A stretch of DNA of 64,000 bases from Amphibalanus amphitrite (Eukaryota > Arthropoda > Thecostraca > Balanomorpha > Balanidae), in contig NW_024881865.1 of NCBI RefSeq assembly GCF_019059575.1, positions 62,001 through 126,000 on the forward strand, in the 5' to 3' direction. The translations under genes and the position numbers were made by a program. This document shows, piece after piece, positions 431 to 61,142 of the stretch. Position 1 is the stretch's first letter. Each line of letters opens with the position of its first letter. Under the pieces are notes generated by a model that did not search any database, had not been told where the DNA came from, and saw only the letters and a list, made by a program, of their open reading frames with translations.

Positions 431-705
431 CTCCTCTCCCGGTACTTCCTCTCCTGTTCCCTCTTCTCCTATCCTCTCCTTTCCTCTCCCTTTCCTCTCC
501 TCTCCTCCCCTCTCCTCTCTTGTTCCCCCTTTTCCTCTCCTATCCTATCCTCTCCTCTCCTCTCCTCTCCTCTCCTCTCCTCTTCTCTCCTCTCCTCTCC
601 TCTCCTCTCCTCTCCTCTCCTCTTCTCCTCTCCTCTCCCTCTCTCTTTCCCTCCCTCTCTCATCCTCTCCTCTCCTCTCCACTCCTCTTCTCTCCTCTTA
701 TCCCC
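431..705. repeat. Polypyrimidine (CCTCT)n-type microsatellite
   Basis: The plus strand is almost only C and T, with long runs of the pentamer CCTCT and interruptions such as CCTTTT and CCCTCTCT. Long open frames on both strands here (Ser/Leu/Pro-rich or Arg/Glu/Gly-rich) come from the repeat and are not genes. Such a mirror polypurine/polypyrimidine tract can form triplex DNA in principle; nothing here shows that it does. Confidence 0.9.
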
Positions 706-4795: not shown

Positions 4796-4806
4796 CTTCT
4801 TACGCG
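4796..4806. repeat. 11-bp direct repeat, left flank of foldback element
   Basis: CTTCTTACGCG occurs here and again at 5846-5856, exactly outside the inverted arms, so it is read as the target-site duplication. Confidence 0.65.
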
Positions 4807-5845: not shown

Positions 5846-5856
5846 CTTCTTACGCG
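5846..5856. repeat. 11-bp direct repeat, right flank of foldback element
   Basis: Second copy of CTTCTTACGCG, paired with 4796-4806. Confidence 0.65.
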
Positions 5857-6624
5857 GTGAAGATTACGATGACATCGATGTCAGCAAAGATGAATTGCGT
5901 GCACCTGTTGTTGGCTGTTATCTTTTTTAATAAAATGCTGCAGAGTTAGCCATTTTATTAAGTAAAAATGGATAAAAAGTGTGTAGCTGTGGTACCGAAT
6001 AGTCAAAAGGTGACTCACTCTGTCGAGCACAATAGTGAAAGTATTGAACAAACAGGACAAACCTGAGCTATACCCCATATTTCGTTGAACAAAAAGTGTT
6101 CTAGCCGTGCCCCCAGTCGTGCAGGCCTGTCCGCATTCGCGTGATAGCCTGTGAGAAAGGCCGGGCAATTGTACAAAACCGCAGAGCGACGGACGTGGCT
6201 GAGCTGGTTTATACGCTCGTGCTGACTGAATCATGGTGTTCATAGCATTGAGATACGAACTGGGTGTGCTGAGGCTAGTTCTAGACATTGTCTTATGTCA
6301 CAGTCTGCGGAATGAAATGTCTGCGTTAGTCGCTGTCATCATCATGCGTGTGACCGTTGCAACGAATAATAGCCAGTGTGATCAAACGACCAAAATACCG
6401 TTTTTTACCTGCATGATCTTTATTATTAACAGTTCAAAAAGCTACATCCACTCACCATAGCTGTGGATGACTCACAAAATATACCTATCTGATGAAGGCG
6501 CTGAATATGTATATGACCTGCTATTGCGACGAAAAGGCTTAAAGATGTCAACAGACGGGTGAGTTGCACTGCAGAAGCCAGTTTTACCAACAGAAAGATA
6601 GCCGGTTGCCGGAATTTTTTGCCT

Positions 6625-6712
6625 AAAGACCGCTTCACATACGGAGCGTTAACGCGATGGGCACGTAAGCGAGTAGGGCTTTGCCGTTTACTCCGTATGT
6701 GAAGCGGTCTTT
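6625..6712. mobile_element. Hairpin MITE (about 88 bp)
   Basis: AAAGACCGCTTCACATACGG at 6625-6644 returns inverted at the right end, where the strand reads CCGTATGTGAAGCGGTCTTT; the match is perfect for about 22 bp. The sequence just outside starts with TA on the left and ends with TA on the right, which would fit a Tc1/mariner-type target, though this rests on only 2 bp. No coding potential. Confidence 0.6.
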
Positions 6713-9700: not shown

Positions 9701-11849
9701 CTTTTGGACGTTATTTTTCCAGTGCTCCGAGGAAAATACTATTCACAATCACAAGTGATCGAAATGTTATGTAATTGATATATTTTTACCATTTATCATT
9801 TGCTTGGTTAAAACTACCTGTCAAATCACAAGTGTTTTTAAAGTAACCACTATATGTATGCGAAATTTCCCCGCTGCTCCACGATGCGAAGGTGACAAGT
9901 AACGGGTGCATGCATGATGATTCCATTTGCAGTTCACCGCAGAAAAGGTGCGAGGACTACTGGGAAACCAGTCAAGTGTTGGACGTGTCGGATAGGCAGA
10001 TATGCAGAACGTTGCTGAAATTGAGCTGCAAAACAGGCTGGAAAGGGATAGATTTTCTACTCGAAATTCAGCGCTGGACGTTTCAAGTGTTCTGTTGATC
10101 GGTAAGCATTTATTCGACTGTTCGTTTCTGCGACAAATAGGAGAATAGCCCCGGCAATTCTGAAGTGGTGGTTTTTCAAGAGTTATGCTGAAAATGAACA
10201 AAAATATAATAGCGTATCGTAAAAGACATCCTTTTCTGTTTACTTTGCTGTCTATCATCACAAAATCGCGAACAATATCGCTTAGCCAACATCCGACAAG
10301 CGTCCACTGTTGCAACAAAGCTCCGCCAATCGTTCCGTCATCTGGCTGCCATCCGCGCGCGGGCTGCTCTCGTCACGCCTTTTCACTTCGACCGACCGAC
10401 CGTGTGACGCCCCATCGAGAGCACCTCTGCTCGATCAGCTGCTCCACAGTCTGTCCGCCACCACCTGACGCGGAGGGGCTCGAAAAGCGGCGCGACCGCG
10501 GCGAAAGCGACGGGCGGCTGTCTATCGGTCCCTCTCGCTCTCTGGACTGGACGGTGTGTCCTGAGAGTTGCCCTGCCTCCAGTCAGGTCACATCTCGAAA
10601 CGTTCTCGTGTCCCAAGTCGTCGCCTAATCACCCGTCAGCTGTGTGTGGCGAGAGCTAATCTGTCCGACGCATGACCCGGCCTGCGGAGAGCGCGCGGAT
10701 GTCGTGCACTGTGTATGACATGTGTCGCCATCGGGCCACCAACGGAGGCAGAGTGGTCCCATCACCCGCTGCGACACGGAACGGGAACGGGGCACGGAAC
10801 GGGCACGTGAGATTGCAGCCGCCGGTGATAGTTTTCGATGGCTGCGTCGCAGTCTCCGCTTACGCAACCCGGGCGATTTCGGACAGCTGATAGACGCGTG
10901 TGGAGAGCAGTCCAGCAGAAACGTCTTGCGGTCGGGATTCGAGAGAGAGATTGGTGAAGAGGTTCGCAGCGTTTCCCGACTCTTGTTCGCTTTACAGATA
11001 CCTAGGGGATTGGTTGCTGGGGGGGGGGGGGGTTGAATAAGGGGACCAAAGTGCTGAGTGATCGGGCGTTGCAGGAAGAGATCGAACCTAGCCTAAACGT
11101 TCAGATAAAGGGTGTGGAAGGAAATCAATATCTGCGTGGGAGATGACGGGGAATCTCGACGCAGTTCCACGCACCATATGCAGTGACTGGGTGTTACCAG
11201 GAAGTGAAGAAGCTCCTCGTACCTTCCCCCGCCAGCTGCAGGATCCGTGAGTGTGGGTCCGCGTCATTATCCCCCGGGCGTGCCTCTCCGGCCCTCTCAG
11301 CAGCAGACGCTCACCGTGATACCGCCCTCTCCTCCTCCACCCCGGCGAAATCGAAAGTGGAGGCGGCCGAAGACGCACGCAGCGCCCAGACGGCGGCGAT
11401 CGGCCGTAATACGGACCGTAATACGGGCCGTAATATGAGCCAGGATCGTGACTCTCACCGCTATTGTCGAGAGGCGCAAGGCAGGCCCAGAGTGTCGTAT
11501 GGAATGACCCAGGTCTCGGTTATCGTGGGTCATCTGACCGGTCGGTGAAGTCAGCTAAAGTCTCTTTCACAGAGCTTCACGGAAGACAGTGTTACGCAAA
11601 GGATTTCGGAAATGGTCGTTCATTACATAGATAACATCGAATTACTCTCGTTGAGTTTAAATGGTAGTGCTTTGCCTTGCCTCGTCGATAGTTCTGGCGT
11701 GTGGTAGCTGGGCTTTAATTTTAAACCCTGCAATTATTTTGGAGGGATTTATTCCTGTTGATGTGTGGGCCGCACGCGGCATTAGAACGGTGCCCGCCTC
11801 CCTGCAGTGTTGTTTTCCTTCCGGTAGCGGTTCTCTGTTTGTGTTTCAG
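6713..11849. other. Gene-poor stretch upstream of the secreted-protein gene
   Basis: No gene can be supported. GC-rich islands at about 8100-8400, 10310-10660 and 11200-11470 could be unannotated 5' exons or promoter CpG-rich regions. The first ends in a good donor (AAACAG|GTGAGA near 8394) with an open frame before it, but no domain is visible. The 5' UTR of the 11.85-kb gene must start somewhere upstream, because its first coding exon follows a splice acceptor. Confidence 0.35.
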
Positions 11850-11850
11850 G

Positions 11851-14800
11851 ATGAGGAGAATGCTGGTGCTGCCAGCGCTGATGGTGGCGCTGGCTGTCTG
11901 CGTCTCCGGGGAGAAATTAGGTGAGTTTGGTGGCCGTCAGGCTGTCAGACAAACTCCGGCCCAGGTGGTAACAGGTGCAGTCTAAACGGACGCCTTTCAC
12001 TGACGGAAAGAATCTGATGACCGTGGTAATGCTGGCTTACGATCTTCTCAATGTTTGCTTTCCCCTTTGTTAGTCCTGAAATGTGTGGTTTTTCTTCAAT
12101 GCTATGCATATTTCATCGATATTGTTCTTTGTTGAAGTTCTGAATTTCCATTATTCAACAATTCATGCTTATCATGTGAATGCAAAAAATTATCACGCTA
12201 TTTTATATAAGACAAAGGATATATCTGTAAGATCAGCATAGTTTGCAGACAAAGGGTACCTCAGCAATGCAGGAGATCCACTGACATTGACAATGAGATT
12301 TGTCCATGCGTCACCGGTTAATGCGGTAACCTGTCGCCGGAGCGCGATGTCGCCCCGCCCGCTGCAGTCACGGACCGGTCAGTTCCCGTTCCCCGTGACA
12401 CACCCGGCGGCTCCCCGCTCACGTGGTGCTGTTACATCACCCGAGAGCCGGCGGTGTTCGGTTTCCATTCAGCCGTCCGTCCCACCGCGGAAATTGGCCA
12501 CAGTGCGGCGGCTGGCCGAGACAGGACGTGCCGGGACGTACCAGCTTGTCCCTCTTCTCACGAAAGGATGTGCATGAATACGTTATCAACCTAGCCGTCT
12601 TCTCACGAGCATACGTGCATGTCCTGTCAACCAGCCTGCTTGAACACAGCGCGCTTTTGAAGATCAAGCGGGCACCGCAGATCGATATCTTGTCTTCATA
12701 CTGGCATCTATCATGCTGTGTCTCTGCGCGATCTATCGTAGAAGTCTCCCCTCAGGAGCATTGGACGTATTGCGCTGGCCGAAGCGGCGTGCCTCGTCAG
12801 ATTTGCCGCATACCATCCACACAGCTGCAGCGGCGGCCCTTCCCCGAGTTCGCCGTCTGTCAGGGGCGCCGCGAGAGGTCAAGCATGCCACCGGATGGTG
12901 TTGATGCATTGTTGGCCCGCAGTGCCTGTCTCGCTAACACCCTAATCGTCGCCCGTGCCGACAACAGGCCATCATCATCCTTCCCCGACGGATTTTCTGA
13001 GTAATCTCTCATCGATGCGATAGTCGGGATACCTGCCGAGGAAGCGTGACACGACATCTGTAAAACACTTTATAGAGCGGATCGCGCTCGGTTGTTTGGC
13101 GCAGGCGACACTGATGGAGCCTCATGCCCTGTTGATCCCTGGGACAGGCGCGGGTCGTGCGGCTGGTATATCCGCTAGGCACGACGGGACCTCGGGTGCT
13201 CCAAGAATGACTGTGGCCTGTAGGAATGTCCCGGAGCTGGGCGAACAATGACCGGTCGCAACTGGCGGAGACAGACGAGCTGGGTTCGATGGACTTGAGG
13301 AAATAACCCCTGGCTTGGGCGGGGCACCTCTGGGTGAAGTAAAACGGTAAAGTGTCTGAATGATGTCGCGGGCATTTTCATTACATTCTGATGACATCAG
13401 AGCTTTAGGATGGTGGCGATGATTAACCTGTTTTCAGTGGGAGTGTTTAAGTGTTGTCTCAGGTGCACCCCTTTCTGTGTTGAAACAAAGACTACATTTA
13501 TGTCCTTTTAAAATCAGACATCGTCCTAGTGACTAGTGCGTATTCATGTCAAAGAGAGCTCTTTGCTGGGACCAGGCCACGCTAATAGCGATTTAAACTG
13601 TTGACAAAAGGCAATGATATGTAAATACTTCATTCAAAATGCGTCATTCAATGCAAAGGAAGTCGGGAATTCAAAGCGAAGATTCGTATCTGAGAGAGGG
13701 CCAAACAAAAACACTGTCACGAAGCGATGTGATGCATACTTTTTGTTTTTCTGCAAACTCTGCCTGGTAAGTTCAACGGACGGATCTACTGAAAATGGAA
13801 ATATCAGCGACGGTCGAGTGCTCCCGTCATTTTCATTCCCGAGGAATCTCGTGCTATCCCCGTCTATCCGCGTTTTGCAAGTGATTGCCGCTATGCCTGC
13901 TGAGTGTGCCTGGAATAAAGTGAGATGTTTTTCCACAATGGTGCCTCCCGCCCGGGCAAACACTTGGATTATGTGGTGTGCACTATGCCAGCCCCGTAAA
14001 CAGAGCGAGTCTGTGGGCCAGGACTCGGGCGCACGGAATGTGTTTGTGTGCGCGCTGCCGAGCTTCGCAGTTCTGTTTGCGTGTCGGCAGAGCCTCAGAG
14101 CGGCACTGGCGGCGCGCGGACACCAGTGACCTCTGCGAGAGGTCGCAGGGTGGTCACGGATCACCGAGACCATGGTCCGGCCAGCGAGCATGTCAGTTAT
14201 TTTACCGTCGCCCTGACATCCTCCGCCTTTGATTGGTATTTACGAGAGTCCCGGCAGGAAAGGTCACTGCCGCTCGCGGCTATTCTCTCATGCAACCTCT
14301 GTTTATGAGATGCTGTTTCCGATTTTTAGACGGTCAGGATCTCGCACATCCGCCTGGGTAAAGTGTGAAGGGCCACGGTCGTACCCAACCCATTGTGGGC
14401 GTTTCGGCGTCCAAACGCACCCGGCTGGATTGCCCCGAGCTGGCGGAAGTGCAGGAACCGATGGCCGTAAAAATCAGTCAGCGTAAAGGAGCGTGGCTAT
14501 ATGTGCGGAACGTCACGCTTGCACATTGCACCATCGGATTATATCAGTGGATTGGTATTGCGCAATCGGATGACAACTGATCGTTTGGCACGAGTAATGT
14601 TTGCCTTGCAAGAGACTGGTAGTTTGTTATCTGACAAAGCATTTTGCTAGGTATTTTAAAGCACTGAATGAATGTCTGCTTTATTGGACCGGAAATTAAC
14701 ATTTAGCATAAGGAAGGCATTCCTACAGTATCGTCGGATGCATAAGTTAATTGTGATTGATATGACCATCAAAGTATACCCACACTAATTTGCCCCACGG

Positions 14801-17800
14801 AACCTCAGACAGAAACCAACATGCGATACTGCACCTATTGCAGTGACGTCACGATCCCTATATCGAAATGGGTTCTAATTGAAACCAACTGAGCCTGGTC
14901 ATGGATGATATAACACTGGATTGGTGTCTCGTGGAAATTAACATTGGGATCCGCGACATTGGGATCAGGCCTGCCATCTAGCGAGAAAATTATCGTAAGT
15001 TAGGAGCAAGCCGAGTGAACGCCATCTCTCAGCATTATGACACACGTGGGTGTGGTGTGTTAGTTGGCTTGAATTGCATATTCCCACGAGTTGGGGGTAA
15101 TCTTACTGGACCTGAGACGACAAAAAATGTATTAAATGCTTGAAAGCCAAAAACGTCAAGCAGCTTTTAGGTAATAACGAAAATAAAATGCGTAAGACGG
15201 TGTGTATTGAAACGCCCAGTCCCATCGGCTTGTACGACCTTTTATATGGTCATTTACTCACAATGGTACAGCAGTTTGACAATATGTCATGCATATTTGG
15301 TAGGCTTATTCCTTCTTCTCCGAATTTCGCCCGATTTTCTTCATCTTAGTTAATGTTACAGCACGTGCCACGTGCCAACTTAGGGGTGTCGAAATTGTTC
15401 CACATAAAGTAACTCCGCAATGACTGGGCCCATGACAGTAAAACTTCGTCAATAGTTAGTCATCCAGTGGCCAATGCATTTCCATGTGTCACTATGGGGG
15501 TGCTACTGCACGTGCGCACGTGCGGGGTGCCGCTTCCATATCTCAAGAACGGCTGGGCGGATAACACTCAAACTTGGTACACAAATGTCACATCGATGCT
15601 CGCACTGCATTGATCAGTGCTTACATTGGTGCAGAGTCATTAGGAAAAGGATGAAACGAGATGCGTGGTGTTTATGCCTTTCTGTTCCAGCAACTGATTG
15701 ATCTGCAACAGGTGATCCCTGTTTGTGAAGGCTTCGTCTCCCTTTTCCATTCCTTGTTTAAAATGACAAAACAATGTACGAAGAAGATCACACATTAAAA
15801 TTGTTTAACCCGCGCCCCGCTGGGCTATTCAGCCATACGCGCCCTGCTGGGGGGGGGGGGGGGCAGATTCTGCCCCCCCTGTCTAACTTCCGAACCGATG
15901 GTCGTAGAAAGACGGGGAAAACGGCAATCGAAAGCTCTCAACAAGGCGGATCTTAAGAGCTCAATTTTTTTTGCTTAAGTAGGTCAGAGGTCAGGTCAAG
16001 GTCAGGTCAAGGGTACAAAATGCAAGTTTGTACAGTATCGGCCTTGCACCGTAGTTGCCGAAGAATGGACTGAGACTGATTGCCCAAAACGTGTTCTTAG
16101 ACTACCAAGACAATATTCGTTGCACACAATGTCATTCAAAGGTCAAGGTCAAGGTCAGGTCAGGTCAGGTCAGGTCACCAAAAACAAAATATAGAAAAGG
16201 GCATGTGCGACACATGTTTTATGGGTCATTTTACTCATGGAATTCAATAGGCACACTCAATAAGTGATATGGACCACCTCTGGATGAATTTCAGGTCGAG
16301 GTCAGGTCAAGGTCAGGTCAAGTGAGGTCAAATTTTGAAGTTGGTTGTTAAGGCCTAAAAAGGTGTCTATCCGATGCAGTTTTTCACGGCGAATCGAATG
16401 GTGCTATTTTTGTTTCCGTACGAGGTCTAGAACTTCCAAAAAAATCATTTTTCAAAATTTTTGTGTGTCGTGACGTCATAAAATTTTGAATAACTCCCAC
16501 ATTTTTGAACCGATTCTTCTAAAAATTGGTATGTGGGTGCACATAGACCACTTCTTTGACATATATTCCGGTTTTTTCGATAAACTCAAAATTTTGGATT
16601 TTATAAATATTTTCCCAAAAAAGTCAGTTTTTTGGAAAAATTTTGGCCAAAATCCAAAATTTTCAAAAAACCGAGATAGCCATTTGATAGACAAAGTAGA
16701 ATCACGTATAACCTTTTTTGTTACGTCTTGATTCCTTTAAAAATGAAGATGTTAGCGGCGTTTGAAATTTTGCCGTTTTTGAGGCGAAAATGGCGAACAT
16801 GCCGTCACTAAAACGTCAATTTCTCAAAAAATTTCCGACGGATTTCGCTCAAATTTTCAGGGAACGTGTCAAATTGATGTATGATAAGGTACTGAAAGTT
16901 TGACGTCGCTGGCGTAACGCGTTTAGAAGTTATTGGCGAAAAACGGGAGGGGGGGGCAGATTCTGCCCCCCCCCCAGCGGGGCGCGGGTTAAGGCGGCTA
17001 TCTTGGGCCACGGCTGCGGAGTTGTAGTCAGAGCCAGCGGTTCTGTTCCGTCTTGGAGTCGGTTGATTTTTAAAAGCTATAGTCGCCAGTCGGAGTATGA
17101 GTCGAACGTCACCGAAAAGTCATCGACTCCACAGACTTACCAGGGCTGCAGAGTCGGAGTCAGAGTCGGAGTCTGTGTGAATCGACACTCGACAGTTCTG
17201 CCCGGATGAGTCGGAGTCGATATTTGAATACCGGAATCGGAGTTGGAGCCAAATTGTCACTGAAATTTCATCGACTACGCAGCGCTGGTTGGGTCCTTTT
17301 CATAGAGCGTCTTGAATGACATTGAGCGGTAATGACGTTAGCAATTCCGTTTAACTTTTTCATTAGACTTATAGATAGTAGGTACCTACTTACGTTCGTT
17401 TTGTTCTTTGATCGGACAATTTGTTCGATTTAGGCCAAGTAAAGACTCATGTGAAAAATAGCGAAAACGACACGTGCTGGCGAAGTCTCCAATAACTCCC
17501 TGTTTCACGATTTAATGAGGAAATAACATGGAACTGCTTATCTTATTACTGACCCTGCACATAAATCTATTAATGTCTTCACTTTTACTGACATATGAAG
17601 ACATAACCTTTTGAAAAAATTGCACAACAAGCCTGCTACTACACCACACTCCCGTGTGTCACAATGCTAATCAGCGGCGTTCACTCGGCTTGCTCCTAAC
17701 TTACGACAATTCTCCCGCTAGATGGCAGGCCTGAGCTCAATGTCGCCAAAAACTGCGAAGACACCAATCCATTATTATCTCATCCATGGCCTGGTTTTGA

Positions 17801-24529: not shown

Positions 24530-25353
24530 AACGGCACCACCTCTTGGGCACCACTCACGCGACGTGGGAGCCCCCTGGTGGGAGTCTGTTTAACTTATAG
24601 TAAGCTAGGATATTCGTAAGGAGTCTAGCTTTCACTTCTAGATGTGTATCAACAAATATATTTTTCTTCTCAATACTCCAAAATAAATTTTGGATAGTTT
24701 TCCAAAAAGCCAAAAATAGCTAAATACTCACATGAAATATTATTCAAAAGAAATTTGCCTTCGGTCTTAGTAAAAAATATTTTCGACTTGGTATAAGATG
24801 TCATTTTACCACTAGTCTAGTGGTAAAAGCTAGTAGAACATATGGTAGGTACAACGTAACATACCAAAGAACCCTTGATGGTCGAATTTTACCTTCTTTG
24901 AATACCGGCACCACCGGCACGACACTTTCCTTCGAGTTCGTAAAGGAGTCGGGTGGGTTGTAAAATGTGCCTGCAATTTGTTGCATGGTGCACGGTGCAG
25001 GTCGTTAGCCCTTCACTAGTTGCATTGTTGCCTACAAGTGCCCCAACTTACCTCAAACCTCCAGGAAGTCCACTGAAAGTTATACACAGGTCAGGTCCAT
25101 CCCAATCCACTATCCAGCCCATCCTGATCCTTTTCATTTTGTTTCTGTTGCAGTTGTGTATTGTGAATGGGATGGCATTTTAATTTCATTTGTGCTGTAA
25201 ATATTCAAGTAATCTGTATTGGTTCTAGATTCTGGTTTTACATGGCAATTATTTTCGATGTATCTGGTTCTGTGTGATTTGTTTCACATTTGTAACCATT
25301 GCCTATTTTGTTTCATCTAGGTATCTGTTTATTTTTTCACAACATTTAAAAAT
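24530..25353 (+). repeat. Segmental duplication copy A, left part
   Basis: Aligns without a gap to 35153-35976 (constant offset 10623); I see no substitution by eye. The LTR retrotransposon starts exactly at its right edge, and copy A resumes at 30275. Confidence 0.9.
25349..25353. repeat. 5-bp target-site duplication, left
   Basis: AAAAT here and at 30270-30274 flank the LTR retrotransposon. The uninterrupted copy B has a single AAAAT at 35972-35976, followed by AAAAGG. Confidence 0.8.
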
Positions 25354-30647: not shown

Positions 30648-32215
<1,568 letters not shown>

Positions 32216-34354: not shown

Positions 34355-35130
34355 GGGGGACCATCAAAGCGTCCAAAACCGCAGCATCCAAAGTACGCAA
34401 CATCCAAAACCGCAGCGTCCAAAGTACGCAACGTCCAAAATACGTCCAAAATCGGGTATATAGGGAGCATTCACAACGTCCAAAACCGAAACATCCAAAA
34501 CCGCAACATCCAAAGTACGCAACATCCAAAGTACTCAACATCCAAAGTACGCAACATCCAAAGTACGCAACATCCAAAACCGTTTGGTTAGGTTAGGTTA
34601 GGCTAGGTTAGGTTAGGTTAGGTTTCCTTATCCCCGGTAGGCATAAATCAGTAGGTTAGGTTAGGTTAGGTTAGGTTAGGTTAGGTTAGGTTAGGTTAGG
34701 TTAGGTTAGGTTAGGTTAGGTTGGGTTTCCTTATCCCCGGTAGGCGAAAATCAGTAGGTTAGGTTAGGTTAGGTTAGGTTGGGTTAGGGATAGGCAAAAA
34801 TCAGTAGGTTAGGTTAGTTTCGGTTAGGTTAGGTTAGGTTAGGTTAGGTTAGGTTGGTTTTGGATGTTGCGTGCCTTGGATATGTCGTGGTCTTGGATGT
34901 TGTGGTTTTGGAGGTTACGTACTTTGGATGTTGCGTCTTTGGATGTTGCGTTTTTTGGATGATACGTTTTTGGAAGTTGCGGTTTTGGATGTTTCGGTTT
35001 TGGACTTTGTGAATGCCCCCTATAAACCCGATTTTGGACGTATTTTGGACGTTGCGTACTTTGGACGCTGCGGTTTTGGATGTTGCGTACTTTGGGTGCT
35101 GCGGTCTTGGACGCTTTGATACGGACCCTT
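34355..35130. mobile_element. Foldback-type element with TTAGG repeats in its loop (776 bp)
   Basis: Inverted arms of about 230 bp consist of short units: ACATCCAAAACCGCA and ACATCCAAAGTACGCA on the left, TGCGGTTTTGGATGT and TGCGTACTTTGGATG on the right. Between them lie four (GGTTA)n blocks separated by TCCTTATCCCCGGTAGGC-type spacers. CAGTTCAGATGG flanks both ends (34343-34354 and 35131-35142). There is no coding frame; frames over the arms are repeat-derived. The design matches the element at 4807-5845, but the unit sequence differs. Confidence 0.7.
34584..34858. repeat. Interstitial (TTAGG)n blocks
   Basis: Four runs of GGTTAGGTTAGG, the arthropod telomere repeat unit, separated by near-identical spacers ending in AATCAGTA. 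They form the loop of the foldback element. Unique sequence lies on both sides, so this is not a chromosome end. Confidence 0.85.
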
Positions 35131-35152: not shown

Positions 35153-36196
35153 AACGGCACCACCTCTTGGGCACCACTCACGCGACGTGGGAGCCCCCTG
35201 GTGGGAGTCTGTTTAACTTATAGTAAGCTAGGATATTCGTAAGGAGTCTAGCTTTCACTTCTAGATGTGTATCAACAAATATATTTTTCTTCTCAATACT
35301 CCAAAATAAATTTTGGATAGTTTTCCAAAAAGCCAAAAATAGCTAAATACTCACATGAAATATTATTCAAAAGAAATTTGCCTTCGGTCTTAGTAAAAAA
35401 TATTTTCGACTTGGTATAAGATGTCATTTTACCACTAGTCTAGTGGTAAAAGCTAGTAGAACATATGGTAGGTACAACGTAACATACCAAAGAACCCTTG
35501 ATGGTCGAATTTTACCTTCTTTGAATACCGGCACCACCGGCACGACACTTTCCTTCGAGTTCGTAAAGGAGTCGGGTGGGTTGTAAAATGTGCCTGCAAT
35601 TTGTTGCATGGTGCACGGTGCAGGTCGTTAGCCCTTCACTAGTTGCATTGTTGCCTACAAGTGCCCCAACTTACCTCAAACCTCCAGGAAGTCCACTGAA
35701 AGTTATACACAGGTCAGGTCCATCCCAATCCACTATCCAGCCCATCCTGATCCTTTTCATTTTGTTTCTGTTGCAGTTGTGTATTGTGAATGGGATGGCA
35801 TTTTAATTTCATTTGTGCTGTAAATATTCAAGTAATCTGTATTGGTTCTAGATTCTGGTTTTACATGGCAATTATTTTCGATGTATCTGGTTCTGTGTGA
35901 TTTGTTTCACATTTGTAACCATTGCCTATTTTGTTTCATCTAGGTATCTGTTTATTTTTTCACAACATTTAAAAATAAAAGGAACCTAGGAACCATCATT
36001 TAAAACTCAAATGTATGATTTCTATAAGCTAATCATTGTCTGCCCTCTGCAGGGAAAGGATTGACACTGAATTCAGCTTACAAAGGTCAAGAAAACCAAA
36101 ATCATGGAGAAAATCAACTGTAAGTTTTGACAAGTTTGGCCATTTTCAGATGGCTATCTCCCTATGTTTTCAAACATTTCATGGCTAGTTAAGTTA
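35153..36196 (+). repeat. Segmental duplication copy B (uninterrupted)
   Basis: 1044 bp matching copy A (24530-25353 plus 30275-30494) almost perfectly. It holds the empty site of the retrotransposon (TTTAAAAATAAAAGG at 35968-35982), the possible UTR exon after TTTCTGTTGCAG, and the first coding exon of IDH (36053-36119). Confidence 0.9.
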
Positions 36197-39100
36197 AAGA
36201 TCAAGATAAGCTACAAAATGAAAACATTGCTAAAATGAAATGTGAATTCAGAATGGCATGCAATGCAAGGGCAGCATTCTGGCATTCAGAGACCTTTATG
36301 AGAAGTTGTTTTATTTGTTAAGTTACTTTTTTTGGCTCTATTTTTTTATCTCACTTACATGTCCTAAATAAAGCATTAAAAGTATGCTCTGGACTAGGTT
36401 TTTGGAATGAAAGTCTTCTCTTGACTAGGATGTTTGGCTTTTACTGCTCAAACATATTGTATAAAATCATTCTACTTATTTCAGGTGGACCAGTTGTGGA
36501 AATGCAGGGAGATGAGATGACCAGGTAAGCCATGAGTTTTTGGGTCTATCATAACCCTTTGAAATATTGCTATGCTTAAGAACACAGAAACAAAAAGAAA
36601 GACAGAAAGAAAGAGAATGTGAAAGTGAGGTCAGAGCTTTTGAGTTGATGAGATGGTGAGAGCAAGACTGAAAAAGAGATGTTGACAGGACCAAGTGCAA
36701 TAGGATTTATGGAAAAGGGTGTCTGGGAGATAGGAGGAAATGGAAAGGGAGGGGAGAGAGAAGGGATGACATTAGCAGATTGATTGGAATAGAGAAGATG
36801 AAAGTTCAGAAAGATGGTGAGAAAGAGGCATGGAGGGGAGAGAGGCTGAGGAGATGAAATGAGAGTAAAGTGTGAGGAATTTGATTATCAGAGCAAATAG
36901 AGTAATGGCCTTCAGCAAGTAGGTACCCAGCAGTCATTGTTTGCTCATCATGAGGAGCCTTGTAACTTAAGTCCAATTGGTCAAATTGAGGCCAATGAAT
37001 GTGTGTCTGTGGTGATTGTGTGTGTATGTGGGGGGGGGGGGGGGCTGATGGCTCAGAAGAGACCAGAACTTGAGTTATTTCACAGCAAGGTCAGATGTTT
37101 GATCTAGAGGCTTTGCAGTAGCCAGATCTGTTTTATTCAGGAGTGTATTCAGGTGTGTTGTTTGAAGCATCAATTCATATAGGTCTAGGATAAAGTGCAT
37201 TGTTGTGTGTAGTTAAAAGCCATCAAATCTCTTGTAAGTAGCGTATTTCCTCATAATTACTCAGCTAAAGCATCCACCCATCCATTTATCCCCCAGAGTG
37301 ATCTGGGACCTCATCAAGGAAAAGTTAATCCTGCCGCACGTGGAGCCAGAGATCCACTTCTTTGACCTGAGCATCCAGAGCCGCGACGCCACCGACGACC
37401 AGGTGACGGTCGACTGCGCTAACGCCATCAAAAAGTACGGCGTCGGCATCAAGTGCGCCACCATCACTCCGGACGAGGCGCGCGTCAAAGGTCAGTCCGG
37501 ATGGGGTCAAAGGTGAGTGGGCAGGGTCAGAGGTCAGTGGGCAGGGTCGACTCGGAGTCGACTCGTTGGGCGGCGGGCGAGATCGGAGGTCGGTCTGGGC
37601 GGTGCGCGATCAGAGGTCAGGAAGACTGCTGCTGGGCAGAGAGCAAGAACAATGTTTATTGGATGTGACAAAGTCCAGAGTTGCATTTGAACCGCTTACT
37701 GCCCAGTTAATGTCGACTTGCTTTTTTCGTAGTTAATACAGACATATGAGCCAGTGGTTCCACAGATGTCATTACGGATGTCTGTCGAGATAAACATTGC
37801 CTTTTTGAAAATCCGAGAACGTTTCTGGAGTTTTACTGATGCCAAACTCTGCGAATGGTTTGGTATCTCCCTTTCTTTGTCCTTCCGGCCACACTTGGAA
37901 AACTTGTTTTCAAACGGTCCCAGTTCTCATTTGGTATTGGGAATAGATGCACAACATCGCACGCTCAGCCCAGAACGATACGCCACACCCCTCTCCTCAC
38001 CTCCCGGCAGAGTTTGACCTGAAGAAGATGTGGAAGTCGCCCAACGGCACGATCCGTAACATCCTTGGCGGCACCGTGTTCCGCGAGGCGATCCTGTGCG
38101 CCAACATCCCTCGGCTGGTGACCGGCTGGACCAAGCCCATCATCATCGGCCGCCACGCGCACGCCGACCAGTACAAGGCCACCGACCTGGTGATACCGGG
38201 CGCCGGGGAGCTTCAGCTCGTCTTCAAACCGGCCGACGGAGGGCCCGCGCAGACGCACACCGTGCATAACTTCCAGGTGAGCTTACAAACTTCAGATTTC
38301 ATGCCAATAGTGGGCGGCGGAAAGGATGAAAGAAGTGGACAGTCAACGGGAGGCCATTAGAGGCCATAAACATTATAATATTATCGCATTGCGAAGTTAT
38401 ACTGATTTGGCCATTAGTCAATTTTACATGTTTGATCATCATGCCGCTGAAGATGTTCTGACACCATTGCGTAATGTCTTTCCACTAGGGAGCCGGTGTG
38501 GCGATGGGCATGTACAACACGGACGAGTCGATCGAGGCTTTCGCGCACTCGTCCTTCAAGTACGCTCTGGAGAAAAAGTACCCACTCTACCTCTCAACCA
38601 AGAACACCATCTTGAAGAAGTACGACGGCAGATTCAAGGACATCTTCCAGGAGATCTACGACAAGTGAGTTTGTTTGTCGTAGTCTGACGTATCGGGGAG
38701 TAGTGTGGATACGAAAAGATCTCGTAAAACGAAGGCATGGGTAAGAATTATCGGGACACAGCAGTAAGAGCGCTCGACGTACCTTCTGGAGTACTACTCA
38801 CTGCGTAGTAATCTCACGCTACACCGTATCAGTTAGCGACTTCGCACTGCTTACATTCGTGACATTTATGACATGTGTCATTCAAGCTACTCTCCTGGGT
38901 TCAGGGATCATAGTTTGTGTCCCGGCTGCCATTTCGCATAGTTACGTTGACCCCGTTGTGAAATAATAAACCCCGCGCCGTGTGCGTCGTACGTGGATGG
39001 GCTGCGGTTGGTTGGCGACAGATTCGTCGTCTGGTCTAGTTATAGGGATGCCGGGCTAGGCGACAGCCTAATTAACCGGTAAATTTGCGCCTGGCGCGGT

Positions 39101-42100
39101 CTCCATATGTATACGCGTAATTTGTGCGCTATTTTTGCGTAGCCTGTTATAGCCTACAGCCTACGCTACGCTTATCTCGGTGTTCTCCACTGACTTTGTC
39201 AACATTTACCATAGCGTCACATAGGACAGAGTGACGCGTTTTATCAGTCTCTATAGTTGACCCATTTTGCAAACATTCCTGATCATCCTGCGAACATCGT
39301 AAATCACCGGTTGCACAGTTACTGCCTGGTTCCCTGCTAGCGGATGGCCAGTATGACACGGGTCATGACTCATGAGGGCGGTACGCTATCTCGCCCCACC
39401 CTCCACTTGACCGTTATCCCGCCCGGAGAGTGGCTGGCTGGCCTGTCTGTGTGCATGTGTTATGCGCCATCTCGTGGTCTGGTGCCGTCGGGGCTGGCTT
39501 TGTTTGTTTTTACACGTGGATACCTGGCACGCAGCCACTGAGGCCGTCTGTACCACGGACGGGGCCGGGTCGATATCGCGTAGCTGTGTAACACCAGTAC
39601 CCTTGTGTAACACCCTACCCCTGTGCTTCCTCCACGGACAGTGTGCCCGCTGGCCCCAACGCGTGGGAGGGGAAGGGCGATGAACCGCGCTGTGCAGTTG
39701 TGGGGCTGCATCGGACCACCACCTGTGGCCGCCCCGCCTCCCTTCTGTCTCTCCCTCCCCCTCCTGGCCATTGTTACTACCGACCGAAGCCATTATAGTG
39801 GATATGAAGCTTCGCAAATAATATGTCACTGTACAGTGTACACGCTGTTCCAATCTAACTAAATATAATGATGATCAAGTGACAACGGGACCAGTTGATC
39901 TCCCCTCTCCTATCACTGACATCTCCCTCCTCCCCCTTCAGGCAGTACCGTCCCCAGTATGAGGCCGCCGGTATCTGGTACGAGCACCGTCTCATCGACG
40001 ACATGGTCGCCTACGCCATGAAGTCCGAGGGCGGCTTCGTCTGGGCGTGCAAAAACTACGACGGAGACGTGCAGAGCGACTCTGTCGCGCAGGGATATGG
40101 TGAGTTCAGGGTTGTTTTAAGTCGACGTGCTGTTTTCGGGGTGGTTGGGGCAGGGGTAGTTTTTTAGGCATGGGTGGTGGTTTTCGTTCTCAATACTTCT
40201 CTTTGAACTACTGTATACATTGGTGTGAATCAGGCAGGATCTCTTGCCGTACGTTTTTACACCCGCTGAGCTTTCGACTTTAGACCGTACGCTGCAGCGT
40301 TAGATAAACGATGTTAAACAATGACGGTGCATTTTTTTGTGTGGTGAATACGCGCATCAAGACTGCCGAGCGGGATCTTCGCTGGTATGCTAACGAACGT
40401 TTGCTCTTCTATTTACTGAACGGAGCTCATAATGACCTTGTCCCTGCAATATCAATAAGCCAGTTGACCTATTAACAACTAATGGATTGAGTTCAACGTG
40501 GCTATTCACTTCAGCAATGGATCGCGCCCCGCCTGCACATTCTCAGACACTGGCATACAGGCCCCACGATAGAGGATACAGGGTGGAAATTTCCACTACC
40601 GACGCTTCCTCCAGTACTGTTCGGAAAATTTCCACTCGGCCACGTAGTCGCGACTCTCGGATTTAAACTGTAGCTCGATGAAGCCAGTGTACGATCTCGG
40701 CCGGTTACCGGGTTGTGTAAAAACTCGTCGGCTGGCTTGTCTAGCGTGCCTAGTAACAGGGTGTCCAGAATTATATGCGGGATGGCGAGCAAAGCGGCGA
40801 CGAGTTTTTCTTCTGGCTTTCTGTCATCTACCTTGGCACATGTACTTACATCTGCAGGTACACTATGCTAATGAGGCCAGTTGAGGAGCTCTCTGACCCC
40901 CTGTCACAGGTTCCCTGGATATAATGTCCTGACCTGACTCCATGTCACAGGCTCCTTGGGCATGATGACCTCGGTGATCTAACCTGACCCTTGCCACAGG
41001 CTCCCTGGGCATGATGACCTCGGTGCTGATCTGTCCGGACGGCCGGACGGTGGAGTCTGAGGCGGCCCACGGCACCGTCACCCGGCACTACCGGCAGCAC
41101 CAGAAGGGCAACGAGACGTCCACCAACCCCATCGGTGAGTGAAACCCCATCGGTGAGCCTACCCCGTCACCCGGCACTACCGGCAGCACCAGAAGGGCAA
41201 CGAGACGTCCACCAACCCCATCGGTGAGTGAAACCCTGTCACCCGGCACTACCGGCAGCACCGGAAGGGCAACGAGACGTCCACCAACCCCATCGGTGAG
41301 TGAAACCCCATCGGTGAGCCGACCCCGTCACCCGGCACTACCGGCAGCACCAGAAGGGCAACGAGACGTCCACCAACCCCATCGGTGAGTGAAACCCATC
41401 GGTGAGCCGACCCCGTCACCCGGCACTACCGGCAGCACCAGAAGGGCAACGAGACGTCCACCAACCCCATCGGTGAGTGAAACCCGGTGACCCGGCACTA
41501 CCGGCAGCACCAGAAGGGCAACGAAACGTCCACCAACCCCATCGGTGAGTGAAACCCATCGGTGAGCCTACCCCGTCACCCGGCACTACTGGCAGCACCA
41601 GAAGGGCAACGAGACGTCCACCAACCCCATCGGTGAGTGAAACCCATCGGTGAGCCTACCCCGTCACCCGGCACTACCGGCAGCACCAGAAGGGCAACGA
41701 GACGTCCACCAACCCCATCGGTGAGTGAAACCCATCGGTGAGCCTACCCCGTCACCCGGCACTACCGGCAGCACCAGAAGGGCAACGAGACGTCCACCAA
41801 CCCAATCGGTGAGTGAAACCCCGTCACCCGGCACTACCGGCAGCACCAGAAGGGCAACGAGACGTCCACCAACCCCATCGGTGAGTGAAACCCATCGGTG
41901 AGCCTACCCCGTCACCCGGCACTACCGGCAGCACCAGAAGGGCAACGAGACGTCCACCAACCCCATCGGTGAGTGAAACCCTGTGACCCGGCACTACCGG
42001 CAGCACCAGAAGGGCAACGAGACGTCCACAAACCCCATCGGTGAGTGAAACCCTGTGACCCGGCACTACCGGCAGCACCAGAAGGCCAACGAGACGTCCA

Positions 42101-43554
42101 CCAACCCCATCGGTGAGTAATTAACACCGATAGTGCCGTCACCCGGCACTACCGGCAGCACCAGAAGGGCAACGAGACGTCCACCAACCCCATCGGTGAG
42201 TGAAACCCTGTGAACCGGCACTACCGGCAGCACCAGAAGGGCAACGAGACGTCCACAAACCCCATCGGTGAGTGAAACCCATCGGTGAGCCTACCCCGTC
42301 ACCCGGCACTACCGGCAGCACCAGAAGGGCAACGAGACGTCCACCAACCCCATCGGTGAGTGAATCCCCATCGGTGAGCCTACCCCGTGACCCGGCACTA
42401 CCGGCAGCACCAGAAGGGCAACGAGACGTCCACCAACCCCATCGGTGAGTAATTAACACCGATAGTGCCGTCACCCGGCACTACCGGCAGCACCAGAAGG
42501 GCAACGAGACGTCCACCAACCCCATCGGTGAGTAATTAACACCGATAGTGCCGTCACCCGGCACTACCGGCAGCACCAGAAGGGCAACGAGACGTCCACC
42601 AACCCCATCGGTGAGTTACCTCTGTCGGTGTCTACCAACCCCATCGACGAGGGCTGCCCGACAACGCCCGCTGTGGTCCATGGGAGGTATCATTCCCTTC
42701 CTAGGGGTTGCTTACGAGTTACGGTTCATGGTTTCCACATTTTTGAATGAGTCGTGGTGTACCGGCTTTTTCATGTAGCATTTGCGATTTGTTTTGCGAA
42801 AACCTACGACGTCTTGAGTAATGTGATGGAATGTGAAACTACGCCATCCGTGATTGCGAAGATACCCGTCGCCTTGTGCGTTCTTTTTTTTTCTCTCTCG
42901 CATGTTCACGTCGCGGTTCCGTTGTCCCGATACACCACGACCGTTACCCAAGTGTCTAGAGATCTCCCATTGATATCCCACGGCCACGATCGACGTGACG
43001 ATACGCCCTGGTCCTCCCCCACCTGTGACGCTCCCCGCCGCGTCCTGCAGCGTCCATTTTCGCGTGGACCCGCGGCCTGCTGCACCGTGCCAAGCTGGAC
43101 GACAACCCGCGGCTGGGCGACTTCTGCCGCGCCCTGGAGGCCGTCTGCATTGAGACCATCGAGGCCGGCCACATGACCAAAGATCTGGCCATCTGCATTA
43201 AGGGCATGGCCAAGTGAGTGAACAATCAAAATATGGAGAAGCTAGTGAGTTGATCAGCTCGAAGTTTTAATGTTTTAAGTCAAGTGTTTGCTTGACGATT
43301 ATTGAGCCGGAATAGAATAAATCGTCTAGTCTTGTTCGTCATCATCATCTCGTTGAATGAGGCGGTTTTAGTGTTGTTTTGGAGCGGCCTCCTTGCTCGT
43401 TTGAAGCTCTGTGGGTACATGTGATGCGATAAGATAGTTATCGTGTGACACGTCGTTTTCGTTCTCCGCCAGCGTCACCCGCGGCGACTACCTCAACACG
43501 TTCGAGTTCCTCGACAAGCTGGCCAGCAACCTGGTGGCCAAGCTGTCCAAGTGA
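36104..43554 (+). CDS. Idh: NADP-dependent isocitrate dehydrogenase, cytosolic type, 409 aa, 9 coding exons
   Basis: Coding exons: 36104-36119, 36485-36524, 37297-37490, 38011-38276, 38489-38664, 39942-40099, 41000-41134, 43051-43213 and 43473-43554. They total 1230 nt, all GT-AG and in phase. The enzyme oxidises isocitrate to 2-oxoglutarate and CO2 and yields NADPH. It is collinear with animal IDH1 from the N-terminus ([11 protein letters not shown]) on. Substrate-site motifs are intact: [14 protein letters not shown], the key Arg in [10 protein letters not shown] (residue 131, equivalent to human Arg132), [17 protein letters not shown] with metal-binding Asp, and [12 protein letters not shown] for NADP. 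The short N-terminus (MEKINCG) shows no mitochondrial leader, and the last residues (AKLSK) differ from the peroxisomal signal of vertebrate IDH1, so a cytosolic site is inferred. The first coding exon is also duplicated upstream. Splice-site copies lie around exons 3 and 7. Confidence 0.96.
37484..37530 (+). repeat. Tandem copies of the IDH exon-3 donor
   Basis: The exon end GTCAAAG|GTCAGT is followed by GTCAAAG|GTGAGT and GTCAGAG|GTCAGT at short spacing, with a shared GGGCAGG tail on the last two. Using the second donor would add 22 nt and shift the frame. Confidence 0.7.
40895..40999 (+). repeat. Tandem copies of the IDH exon-7 acceptor and exon start
   Basis: Three CAC-AG acceptor blocks in a row precede exon 7: TGTCACAG|GTTCCCTGG (about 40910), TGTCACAG|GCTCCTTGGGC (40951) and the real TGCCACAG|GCTCCCTGGGC (41000). 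The middle copy carries 30 bp of exon-like sequence and then reads into TAA in the gene's frame. Confidence 0.85.
41135..42616 (+). repeat. Minisatellite made from the IDH exon-7 end and its splice donor, 18 extra copies
   Basis: Right after exon 7 the last part of the exon (from about CACCCGGCACTACCGGCAGC to CCCCATCG) with the donor GTGAGT is repeated in tandem 18 more times, with spacings of about 65-95 bp. The copies differ by few substitutions and by the linker (GAAACCCATCGGTGAGCC or AATTAACACCGATAGTGCC). Every copy I checked keeps an intact GTGAGT. Reading through any copy in the IDH frame meets a stop at once (ATC GGT GAG TGA), so only the first donor gives normal protein. The minus-strand open frames here are repeat-derived. 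Confidence 0.95.
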
Positions 43555-56761: not shown

Positions 56762-57846
56762 ATCTGGCTGAAGAAACCTACCGGGGAATCCAAAGGAAGG
56801 GGCCCAAAGAGGCCCCCAAAGAGGCCCTTTCTAAGTATTGCCCCTAATTTCGCGACCAACCCCGGCAATATGCACATCATTGGAAAGAGGGTAATTTCCC
56901 AAACAAAAAACCCAAGTAACATTTTTCGATGGGGCCCACCTGTGGCCCACGGGACCCAATTGAAATTTGGGGCCCAATGGGGCGGCCCCTACGATTTTCT
57001 TCAAAATTTGCACAGACACTCTCCTGGGCCCCCTCTTCAATCTGGCTGAAGAAACCTACCGGGGAATCCAAAGGAAGGGGCCCAAAGAGGCCCCCAAAGA
57101 GGCCCTTTCTAAGTATTGCCCCTAATTTCGCGACCAACCCCGGCAATATGCACATCATTGGAAAGAGGGTAATTTCCCAAACAAAAAACATACGTAACAT
57201 TTTTCGATGGGGCCCACCTGGGGCCCACGGGACCCAATTGAAATTTGGGGCCCAATGGGGCGGCCCCTACGATTTTCTTCAAAATTTGCACAGACACTCT
57301 CCTGGGCCCCCTCTTCAATCTGGCTGAAGAAACCTACCGGGGAATCCAAAGGAAGGGGCCCAAAGAGGGCCCCAAAGAGGCCCTTTCTAAGTATTGCCCC
57401 TAATTTCGCAACCAACCCCGGCAATATTCACATCATTGGAAAGAGCGTAATTTCCCAAACAAAAAACCCAAGTAACATTTTTCGATGGGGCCCACCTGGG
57501 GCCCACGGGACCCAATTGAAATTTGGGGCCCAATGGGGCGGCCCCTACGATTTTCTTCAAAATTTGCACAGACACTTTCCTGGGCCCCCTCTTCAATCTG
57601 GCTGAAGAAACCTACCGGGGAATCCAAAGAAAGGGGCCCAAAGAGGGCCCCAAAGAGGCCCTTTCTAAGTATTGCCCCTAATTTCGCGACCAACCCCGGC
57701 AATATGCACATCATTGGAAAGAGCGTAATTTCCCAAACAAAAAACCCAAGTAACATTTTTCGATGGGGCCCACCTGGGGCCCACGTAACCCAATTGAAAT
57801 TTGGGGCCCAATGGGGCGGCCCCTACGATTTTCTTCAAAATTTGCA
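56762..57846 (+). repeat. 278-bp satellite array, forward monomers (about 4)
   Basis: Monomer starts (ATCTGGCTGAAGAAACCTAC) recur at 56762, 57040, 57318 and 57596, exactly 278 bp apart. The sequence is rich in GGGCCC-type blocks. The 107-132-codon open frames on both strands repeat with the monomer and are not genes. Confidence 0.96.
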
Positions 57847-60133
57847 TCGAAAAATGTTACTTGGGTTTTTTGTTTGGGAAATTACGCTCTTTCCAATGAT
57901 GTGCATATTGCCGGGGTTGGTCGCGAAATTAGGGGCAATACTTAGAAAGGGCCTCTTTGGGGCCCTCTTTGGGCCCCTTCCTTTGGATTCCCCGGTAGGT
58001 TTCTTCAGCCAGATTGAAGAGGGGGCCCAGGAGAGTGTCTGTGCAAATTTTGAAGAAAATCGTAGGGGCCGCCCCATTGGGCACCAAATTTCAATTGGGT
58101 CCTGTGGGCCCCAGGTGGGCCCCATCGAAAAATGTTACTTGGATTTTTTGTTTGGGAAATTACGTTCTTTCCAATGATGTGCATATTGCCGGGGTTGGTC
58201 GCGATATTAGGGGCAATACTTAGAAAGGGCCTCTTTGGGGCCCTCTTTGGGCCCCTTCCTTTGGATTCCCCGGTAGGTTTCTTCAGCCAGATTGAAGAGG
58301 GGGCCCAGGAGAGTGTCTGTGCAAATTTTGAAGAAAATCGTAGGGGCCGCCCCATTGGGCCCCAAATTTCAATTGGGTCCCGTGGGCCCCAGGTGGGCCC
58401 CATCGAAAAATGTTACTTGGGTTTTTTGTTTGGGAAATTACGCTCTTTCCAATGATGTGCATATTGCCGGGGTTGGTCGCGAGATTAGGGGCAATACTTA
58501 GAAAGGGCCTCTTTGGGGCCCTCTTTGGGCCACTTCCTTTGGATTCCCCGGTAGGTTTCTTCAGCCAGATTGAAGAGGGGGCCCAGGAGAGTGTCTGTGC
58601 AAATTTTGAAGAAAATCGTAGGGGCCGCCCCATTGGGCCCCAAATTTCAATTTGTCCCGTGGGCCCCAGGTGGGCCCCATCGAAAAATGTTACTTGGGTT
58701 TTTTGTTTGGGAAATTACGCTCTTTCCAATGATGTGCATATTGCCGGGGTTGGTCGCGAAATTAGGGGCAATACTTAGAAAGGGCCTCTTTGGGCCCCTC
58801 TTTGGGCCCCTTCCTTATGATTCCCCGGTAGGTTTCTTCAGCCAGATTGAAGAGGGGGCCCAGGAGAGTGTCTGTGCAAATTTTGAAGAAAATCTTAGGG
58901 GCCGCCCCATTGGGCCCCAAATTTCAATTGGGTCCCGTGGGCCCCAGGTGGGCCCCATCGAAAAATGTTACTTGGGTTTTTTGTTTGGGAAATTACGCTC
59001 TTTCCAATGATGTGCATATTGCCGGGGTTGGTCGCGATATTAGGGGCAATACTTAGAAAGGGCCTCTTTGGGGCCCTCTTTGGGCCCCTTCCTTTGGATT
59101 CCCCGGTAGGTTTCTTCAGCCAGATTGAAGAGGGGGCCCAGGAGAGTGTCTGTGCAAATTTTGAAGAAAATCGTAGGGGCCGCCCCATTGGGCCCCAAAT
59201 TTCAATTGGGTCCCGTGGGCCCCAGGTGGGCCCCATCGAAAAATGTTACTTGGGTTTTTTGTTTGGGAAATTACGCTCTTTCCAATGATGTGCATATTGC
59301 CGGGGTTGGTCGCGATATTAGGGGCAATACTTAGAAAGGGCCTCTTTGGGGCCCTCTTTGGGCCCCTTCCTTTGGATTCCCCGGTAGGTTTCTTCAGCCA
59401 GATTGAAGAGGGGGCCTAGGAGAGTGTCTGTGCAAATTTTGAAGAAAATCGTAGGGGCCGCCCCATTGGGCCCCAAATTTCAATTGGGTCCCGTGGGCCC
59501 CAGGTGGGCCCCATCGAAAAATGTTACTTGGGTTTTTTGTTTGGGAAATTACGCTCTTTCTAATGATGTGCATATTGCCGGGGTTGGTCGCAAAATTAGG
59601 GGCAATACTTAGAAAGGGCCTCTTTGGGGCCCTCTTTGGGCCCCTTCCTTTGGATTCCCCGGTAGGTTTCTTCAGCCAGATTGAAGAGGGGGCCCAGGAG
59701 AGTGTCTGTGCAAATTTTGAAGAAAATCGTAGGGGCCGCCCCATTGGGCCCCAAATTTCAATTGGGTCCCGTGGGCCCCAGGTGGGCCCCATCGAAAAAT
59801 GTTACTTGGGTTTTTTGTTTGGGAAATTACGCTCTTTCTAATGTTGTGCATATTGCCGGGGTTGGTCGCAAAATTAGGGGCAATACTTAGAAAGGGCCTC
59901 TTTGGGGCCCTCTTTGGGCCCCTTCCTTTGGATTCCCCGGTAGGTTTCTTCAGCCAGATTGAAGAGGGGGCCCAGGAGAGTGTCTGTGCAAATTTTGAAG
60001 AAAATCGTAGGGGCCGCCCCATTGGGCCCCAAATTTCAATTGGGTCCCGTGGGCCCCAGGTGGGCCCCATCGAAAAATGTTACTTGGGTTTTTTGTTTGG
60101 GAAATTACGCTCTTTCCAATGATGTGCATATTG
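57847..60133 (-). repeat. 278-bp satellite array, inverted monomers (about 8)
   Basis: The same monomer runs in the opposite orientation from a breakpoint at about 57846 (AAAATTTGC|ATCGAAAAATG). Equivalent points recur at 58014, 58292, 58570, 58847, 59125, 59403, 59681 and 59959, so spacing is 277-278 bp. Confidence 0.96.
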
Positions 60134-61142
60134 CTGGATTTTGTCGATGTTATAGGCCTGAAATTGTTGAAAACGTTTATTTATGCCCCGAAGGCATACT
60201 CCCGGGCCCATATATTTGAAGCTGTTTTGTTCGGTTCAGGGGGGCGCTAGCCCCCTAAATTTGGTACCGTTGTACGTAAAATTTTGTCCTCTTTCGAATG
60301 ACGTGCATTTTTAGCTGTTTTGACGGCTAGAAGTAGGGTTTTCAAAGTTCGTCGATTGTGCCCTGAGGGCATACTGTTTTTTGGGATTTGTGGCCCCCCT
60401 GATGGATTCCCCGCATTTTGGCACTAGGATTTTCGATAGAGGACACCATTCTGCACCTCTCCACCAAAATTCAGCGAAATCGTAGGGGCCGTCGATCCCT
60501 GCTGAATCCCTGCTGAACCCCTGCTGAATCCCTGCTAACTTCCGTTACATGAAAATTCCGTACGCTGAAGCTTACTCTTTTTGTTCCTTTGTTTTTCTTT
60601 CGTCTATGTCCCTCTGATGATATAAAACCTTCTTCACTTATAATTGGCCTTGGTGCCTGGTTAGTTGTCATCTGCCATGAGATTTGAGAAAGTGAGTTTT
60701 GGCTAGGTATCTACACATAAAATCAGGCAAGCAAAACAAATACCTTTTTGTTGATTCTTCAACAAATACAAATCAATTCACGTTTATTGTTTAACAGACA
60801 AAGGTACAGAGCCATGGCAGCATTTCGACGCTTTAGGCTTATATGTATTTCAAAATACAGACTGCATTACCTAGAATTACTAGAATTATGTAGCAGCCGT
60901 GCCATAGAGCGTACGGTCTGTTGATGACCTAATAGTTTACCTCAGATCGTCTCATGATGTGATGAGAGCTTGGATACTTTTCACACCCGACTGGTAGAAC
61001 ATTCAAACACAGGTCGAAGCTTTATCGGATGTGCCTAATTGGACTGAAATCACATCACCGCTGTCCGTTTCTAGTTCCTACGCAGCGCCGGTCGGCCGGT
61101 TGCTGGTCCTCTGTGACCTTCCGGGCTGCAGCCAGCGCTCAG
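60134..61142. other. Diverged satellite-like sequence and 3' flank of the STK33-like gene
   Basis: To about 60530 the sequence keeps fragments of the satellite (AAATCGTAGGGGCCG at 60477) and has its own repeated block (GCCC-GA-GGCATACT at about 60184 and 60360). A short run of four CCCTGCTGAA units lies at 60497-60536. The rest is unremarkable; the STK33-like 3' UTR would start below 61143. Confidence 0.45.

Follow-up and report, generated by a model that had tools for sequence, protein, structure and literature searches.

Exon-edge minisatellites of the mirage kind in a barnacle genome: a tandem array of splice donors behind exon 7 of an IDH gene

How is an exon spliced correctly when its end, together with the splice donor, is followed by a long series of near-identical copies of itself? 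This question is raised by a gene for isocitrate dehydrogenase of the cytosolic NADP type (IDH1) in the barnacle Amphibalanus amphitrite, which is located in a stretch of 64,000 nucleotides (nt) from assembly GCF_019059575.1 (contig NW_024881865.1, positions 62,001 to 126,000 of the forward strand), here called the window, with a GC content of 40-61% by 2-kb step. A preliminary description of this DNA had reported 18 extra copies of the end of exon 7 at 41135..42616, each consisting of the end of the coding exon plus the donor GTGAGT. Coordinates and count are correct, and every copy indeed comprises 58 nt of exon followed by GTGAGT, so that the tandem unit (58 nt of exon, GTGAGT, and a tail) bridges the exon-intron boundary. 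The array is genuine: a long, clean minisatellite at an exon edge, made up of the following elements.

41000..41134, forward strand: exon 7 of IDH1 (135 nt), with the source of the array in its last 58 nt (41077-41134)
41135..41140, forward strand: authentic donor GTGAGT (TCG/GTGAGT)
41135..42616, forward strand: tandem array of 18 copies of 58 nt of exon end, GTGAGT, and tail
41223, 41295, 41384, 41472, 41544, 41632, 41720, 41808, 41880, forward strand: exon-end base of donor copies 2-10
41968, 42040, 42112, 42195, 42267, 42355, 42444, 42527, 42610, forward strand: exon-end base of donor copies 11-19
41153..41158, forward strand: first of nine extra GTGAGC donors
After bases 41313, 41401, 41561, 41649, 41737, 41897, 42284, and 42373, forward strand: the other eight GTGAGC donors
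42633..42652 (about), forward strand: decayed 20th copy (taccaaccccatcgacgagg) with the donor GT lost, read by eye and unscored

The final intact copy carries its exon part up to 42610 and its donor at 42611-42616. Over their 1044 nt of exon-derived sequence, the 18 copies depart from exon 7 by 13 mismatches, which represent 8 distinct changes and a mean divergence of 1.2%; 10 of the 18 are identical to the exon. Units occur in three lengths, i.e., 72 nt with the tail GTGAGTGAAACCCN, 88/89 nt with this tail and an added CATCGGTGAGC, and 83 nt with the tail GTGAGTAATTAACACCGATAGTGCC, the latter in three units only (after 42112, 42444, and 42527). Tail types follow no simple order along the array, and a spatial gradient of units is not seen either (correlation of distance with spacing -0.13). 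What had been described as about 19 near-equal, intact donors within 1.5 kb is in fact a series in which all 19 GTGAGT donors share one 9-mer from -3 to +6, TCGGTGAGT. To these are added the nine GTGAGC donors, which sit in nine units of 88/89 nt and come with the added CATCGGTGAGC, bringing the total to 28 GTGAG donors within 1.5 kb. These GTGAGC donors, the decayed 20th copy, and the copies at the exon 7 acceptor and the exon 3 donor presented below go beyond the preliminary description. When edge copies are counted by local alignment score with a cut-off of 24, the donor edge of exon 7 scores 58 (z 29), a value that none of 100 dinucleotide shuffles reached.

The gene that harbors the array is intact, its copies lying on the intron side of a complete coding exon. 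The splice-consistent translation covers the coding part only, in nine exons.

36104..43554, forward strand: IDH gene, cytosolic NADP type
36104-36119, 36485-36524, 37297-37490, 38011-38276, 38489-38664, forward strand: coding exons 1-5
39942-40099, 41000-41134, 43051-43213, 43473-43554 (with stop), forward strand: coding exons 6-9

The product has 409 amino acids, with the stop codon at 43552-43554, and its best match among solved structures is a cytoplasmic NADP-IDH (E 1.2e-217, residues 3-408).

Since repeat arrays are prone to assembly error, one may ask whether the true locus holds only one or a few copies and was expanded during assembly. A second contig, C504, carries the IDH1 array at 100% identity, and the block around the array shows 4 mismatches in 9259 nt between C504 and C368, the contig of the window; to the left of that block, at window positions 447-14899, stretches of the two contigs are 91-95% identical. 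As C504 stems from the same assembly (807.5 Mb, in which each of the loci compared has a second, haplotype-like contig), it offers no independent proof of copy number. However, variants private to individual units and three tail types in no simple order, together with sibling arrays of diverged units elsewhere in the genome, make an assembly expansion very unlikely. The copies have diverged from the exon far less than the two IDH2 contigs from each other (aligned blocks 72-92% identical), which suggests a recent expansion or homogenisation of the array.

Minisatellites at exon-intron boundaries are known from amphioxus, where they have been termed mirages and are reported (PMC3087553, PMC3902484) for Adh, the globins BflGb6 and BflGb9, and TnC, with similar repeats in PGBD5. 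According to these papers, amphioxus mirages do not interfere with regular splicing, and the mirage of BflGb6 differs in length between haplotypes. In the barnacle, copy number differs between haplotypes at sibling arrays in IDH2 (3 versus 1 copies) and in an IDH3-type gene (7 versus 8); the IDH1 array itself is identical on C368 and C504. In contrast to the cephalochordate amphioxus, the host is an arthropod here, the IDH1 array has 19 donor units as compared to 6 and 3 in the two BflGb6 haplotypes, and several gene families of one genome were sampled. COX1 reads with the invertebrate mitochondrial code, and its protein looks arthropod-type; in amphioxus mitochondria, AGA means Gly. Assembly size, window GC, haplotype divergence, and TTAGG repeats would be in keeping with a barnacle. 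Pollicipes is reported to have 770 Mb and 52.3% GC (PMC8917513), and Balanus improvisus about 740 Mb and very high diversity (PMC8270832). No earlier report of exon-edge arrays in arthropods was found in a search limited to one open-licence library.

Which donor should be used? The preliminary description had left a choice between a strongly preferred first donor and an array that tunes IDH output through nonsense-mediated decay (NMD); the first of these alternatives agrees better with what is known about exon definition (PMC9225289) and about amphioxus (PMC3087553). Exon definition is reported to set in when flanking introns are longer than 200-250 nt, and sites nearest to each other across the exon are then preferred, a result obtained both from human data and from minigenes whose donors were identical (PMC9225289). 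Exon 7, with its 135 nt, is flanked by introns of 900 nt (40100-40999) and 1916 nt; from these sizes the innermost donor is predicted to be the one that should win. Because preference follows proximity across the exon, the first donor and the last acceptor are predicted, as the intact protein needs. The locus resembles the competing duplicated 5' splice sites of the same study in that tandem donors of equal strength stand behind one acceptor; it differs in that the study measured pairs, in human genes and in minigenes, and that the natural locus described here has 19 identical donors. No local feature was found to single out the first donor, given that all 19 have the same 9-mer and a uniformly low predicted accessibility. 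The 83-nt tail could form a hairpin (ATCGGTG...CACCGAT, by eye) that might cover a donor; this was considered and dismissed, as it concerns three units only and accessibility there falls inside the spread of values at the other donors.

Use of any later donor has a consequence that the preliminary description had predicted correctly, namely the addition of a stop codon.

41141..41143, forward strand: in-frame TGA met on use of any donor but the first

For every downstream GTGAGT, reading past the first donor gives ATC GGT GAG TGA in frame, and the distance from the end of this TGA to the junction runs from 80 nt for donor 2 to 1467 nt for donor 19. As in poison exons or NMD-coupled alternative donors, downstream donors would therefore create a premature stop, and one may imagine that the decoys route a fixed share of transcripts into isoforms with the TGA at 41141, which are degraded, and that this share depends on copy number. 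The 28 donors, 19 of them identical, a stop that precedes the junction by 80 nt or more for all GTGAGT donors 2-19, and the fact that four IDH-type genes (two of them partly examined) all have edge copies and CCT genes have few would be in line with such tuning. However, the stop arises from GTGAGTGA in this intron phase and need therefore not be a selected feature, and, unlike in poison exons, conservation of the donors beyond the neutral level was not found (0 changes in 18 9-mers, where 2.13 would be expected; P = 0.12, although so few changes give the test little power). In addition, the donor array of the IDH3-type gene lacks an immediate stop (by eye, one follows some codons later), the site has been lost in some older copies (also by eye), one IDH2 array is missing from the other haplotype, and amphioxus arrays reportedly splice normally (PMC3087553). 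Because donors are kept no better than their neighbors, the stop follows from the phase of GTGAGTGA, and related arrays vary between haplotypes or have lost sites, selected tuning by NMD is unsupported, and a decoy array that adjusts IDH output is unlikely. The wider proposal that edge arrays are heritable rheostats, with the fraction of IDH pre-mRNA that is decayed depending on how many decoy splice sites are present, and that the IDH genes of this animal acquired such arrays repeatedly and independently, is unlikely as well.

For amphioxus globins, PMC3087553 states a model in which new exons or introns arise from such copies, and in the barnacle the copies might likewise serve, now or in future, as alternative exon ends. 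Donors are intact in all 18 copies, but reading on to the GTGAGT of any copy leads to an immediate stop and the units do not include the acceptor of exon 7; we consider this alternative very unlikely.

In our opinion, the array is therefore best explained, with good though not complete confidence, as a mirage-type by-product of local DNA duplication that is tolerated by splicing and probably has no dedicated function, and not as a dedicated switch. The first step was probably a short-range tandem duplication of the exon edge, as suggested by the ACC that exon (GGCACC) and intron (GAAACC) have in common, by eye, at the unit junction. The array probably then grew by unequal exchange or slippage. 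Splicing would pair the sites closest across the exon; with the first donor in use, the exon of 135 nt would be defined and the intron would be removed together with the array. The copies probably survive because of this pairing, at most with the leakage of some transcripts that are targeted by NMD. Introns rich in TGACC were also considered as seeds of such arrays and discarded, as TGACC is only 1.23 times more frequent than expected.

IDH1 shows that the array is not alone, even within the gene.

40899..41025, forward strand: acceptor edge of exon 7, with copies at 40899-40935 and 40940-40976 and the real edge at 40989-41025; both copies keep CAG/G
37482..37543, forward strand: donor edge of exon 3, with the real edge at 37482-37501 and copies at 37504-37523 and 37524-37543 (75-90% identity to the reference copy)

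The acceptor edge of exon 7 scores 30 (z 13), and none of 100 dinucleotide shuffles scored as high. Copies of the exon 3 donor form a family of three with period 20 in Tandem Repeats Finder; they are too closely spaced for the edge test, in which this edge scored only 13. In the edge test, 2 of the 16 IDH1 edges reach a score of at least 24, both at exon 7, and the remaining 14 score at most 15.

Nor is the IDH1 array a one-off in the genome, since edge copies recur in several genes and on both kinds of edges (IDH1, IDH2, IDH3-type, aldehyde dehydrogenases (ALDH), and CCT chaperonins). The gene sample is small: IDH1 was picked by the finding itself and IDH2 and IDH3-type genes as its relatives. 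The names IDH3-type, ALDH, and CCT are based on Pfam matches and our reading of them, and exon ends in these genes are ends of profile matches that may differ from splice sites. In IDH2, 3 of 14 edges on contig C111 and 2 of 13 on C1266 have copies (score of at least 24), all at acceptors. On C111 these belong to exons 2, 4, and 7; on C1266 exon 4 is free of them and only exons 2 and 7 are concerned. At the acceptor edge of exon 4 there are three copies on C111 versus one on C1266, and exon 8 shows a weaker copy on both contigs (scores 17 and 16). IDH2 has no intron at the position of the IDH1 array. On C1266, a 20-nt minisatellite of 18 copies (locus L015, 7788-8154) follows the donor of IDH2 exon 4 at a short distance, and C111 has, by eye, only about two similar units at the same place.

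Among IDH3-type loci, 6 of 18 edge tests are positive, a number that includes two haplotypes of one gene and the 3' edge of locus L058 (score 25), which is GC-rich and may be spurious. One IDH3-type gene has, the real edge included and allowing up to 3 mismatches, 7 versus 8 acceptor copies and 7 versus 8 donor copies depending on the haplotype, and a second one has five acceptor copies, again counting the real edge. Aldehyde dehydrogenases show copies at 2 of 16 edges; at locus L066 an acceptor with a long exon part is repeated twice, and at L061 a donor is repeated with only a few nt of exon. Donor-edge copies are present only in IDH1, IDH3-type genes, and ALDH. An initial view that CCT genes are free of edge copies (0 of 60 edges) had to be abandoned when 86 of 101 matches gave 5/127 and all 101 matches, 67 of them inside 30 fetched loci, gave 5/131, the latter count with a cut-off of 20. 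The five positives (scores 33-59) are all acceptor edges and come from three different exons; two of these exons have copies on both haplotypes, and one of the three has copies with only 4-8 nt of exon. At similar exon GC, edge copies look more frequent in IDH1, IDH2, and IDH3-type genes than in CCT genes.

Several observations weigh against our interpretation. Local copies with a score of at least 24 are common away from edges, namely at 70 of 628 window positions, at 25 of 92 positions in IDH1 introns (array included), at 10 of 185 and 10 of 112 positions in IDH2 introns, at 5 of 109 mid-exon positions, and at 46 of 440 positions in ten stretches of C504 (34 of them in one stretch), as well as at 23/2187 positions of CCT loci, 60/309 of IDH3-type loci, and 19/249 of ALDH loci; some of these off-edge positives fall inside the edge arrays themselves. 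Exon edges are therefore not shown to be hotspots. Within this small, relative-based sample, IDH genes look enriched in edge copies, an excess that the proposed by-product leaves without explanation. Instability of the IDH1 array was not seen between C368 and C504, on which it is identical. Regarding splicing, the proximity preference is statistical, with the upstream donor used in 60% of human events of equal strength, all classes pooled (PMC9225289), and the intron-proximity behavior described by Reed and Maniatis (as cited in the same paper) would favor the last donor under intron definition.

Other repeats accompany the gene. Two LTR-like (long terminal repeat) direct repeats of 824 nt, 100% identical, are located at 24530-25353 and 35153-35976, the right one stopping 128 nt upstream of the IDH1 start codon; translations of the frames between them suggest gag/pol-like products. 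The segment 30268-30494 is a 99.6% copy of 35970-36196, which holds IDH1 exon 1 with its donor, and lies 5.7 kb upstream. Further away, a 278-nt tandem repeat at 56762-60134 forms two adjoining arrays that meet near 57845 and whose consensus units look like reverse complements of each other. A nearly perfect (GA)n run of 284 units occupies 31168-31734, and an interstitial repeat of the TTAGG type, the telomere repeat of arthropods, lies at 34582-34859 beside repeats of 15-16 nt.

Exon-edge minisatellites are hereby extended from amphioxus to a strongly heterozygous arthropod genome, in which several were already encountered among the few genes sampled. With 19 identical donor 9-mers and near-identical upstream exon context behind one acceptor, the IDH1 locus puts the exon-proximity rule to a natural test, and arrays that vary between haplotypes would permit allele-specific tests of whether copy number affects splicing.

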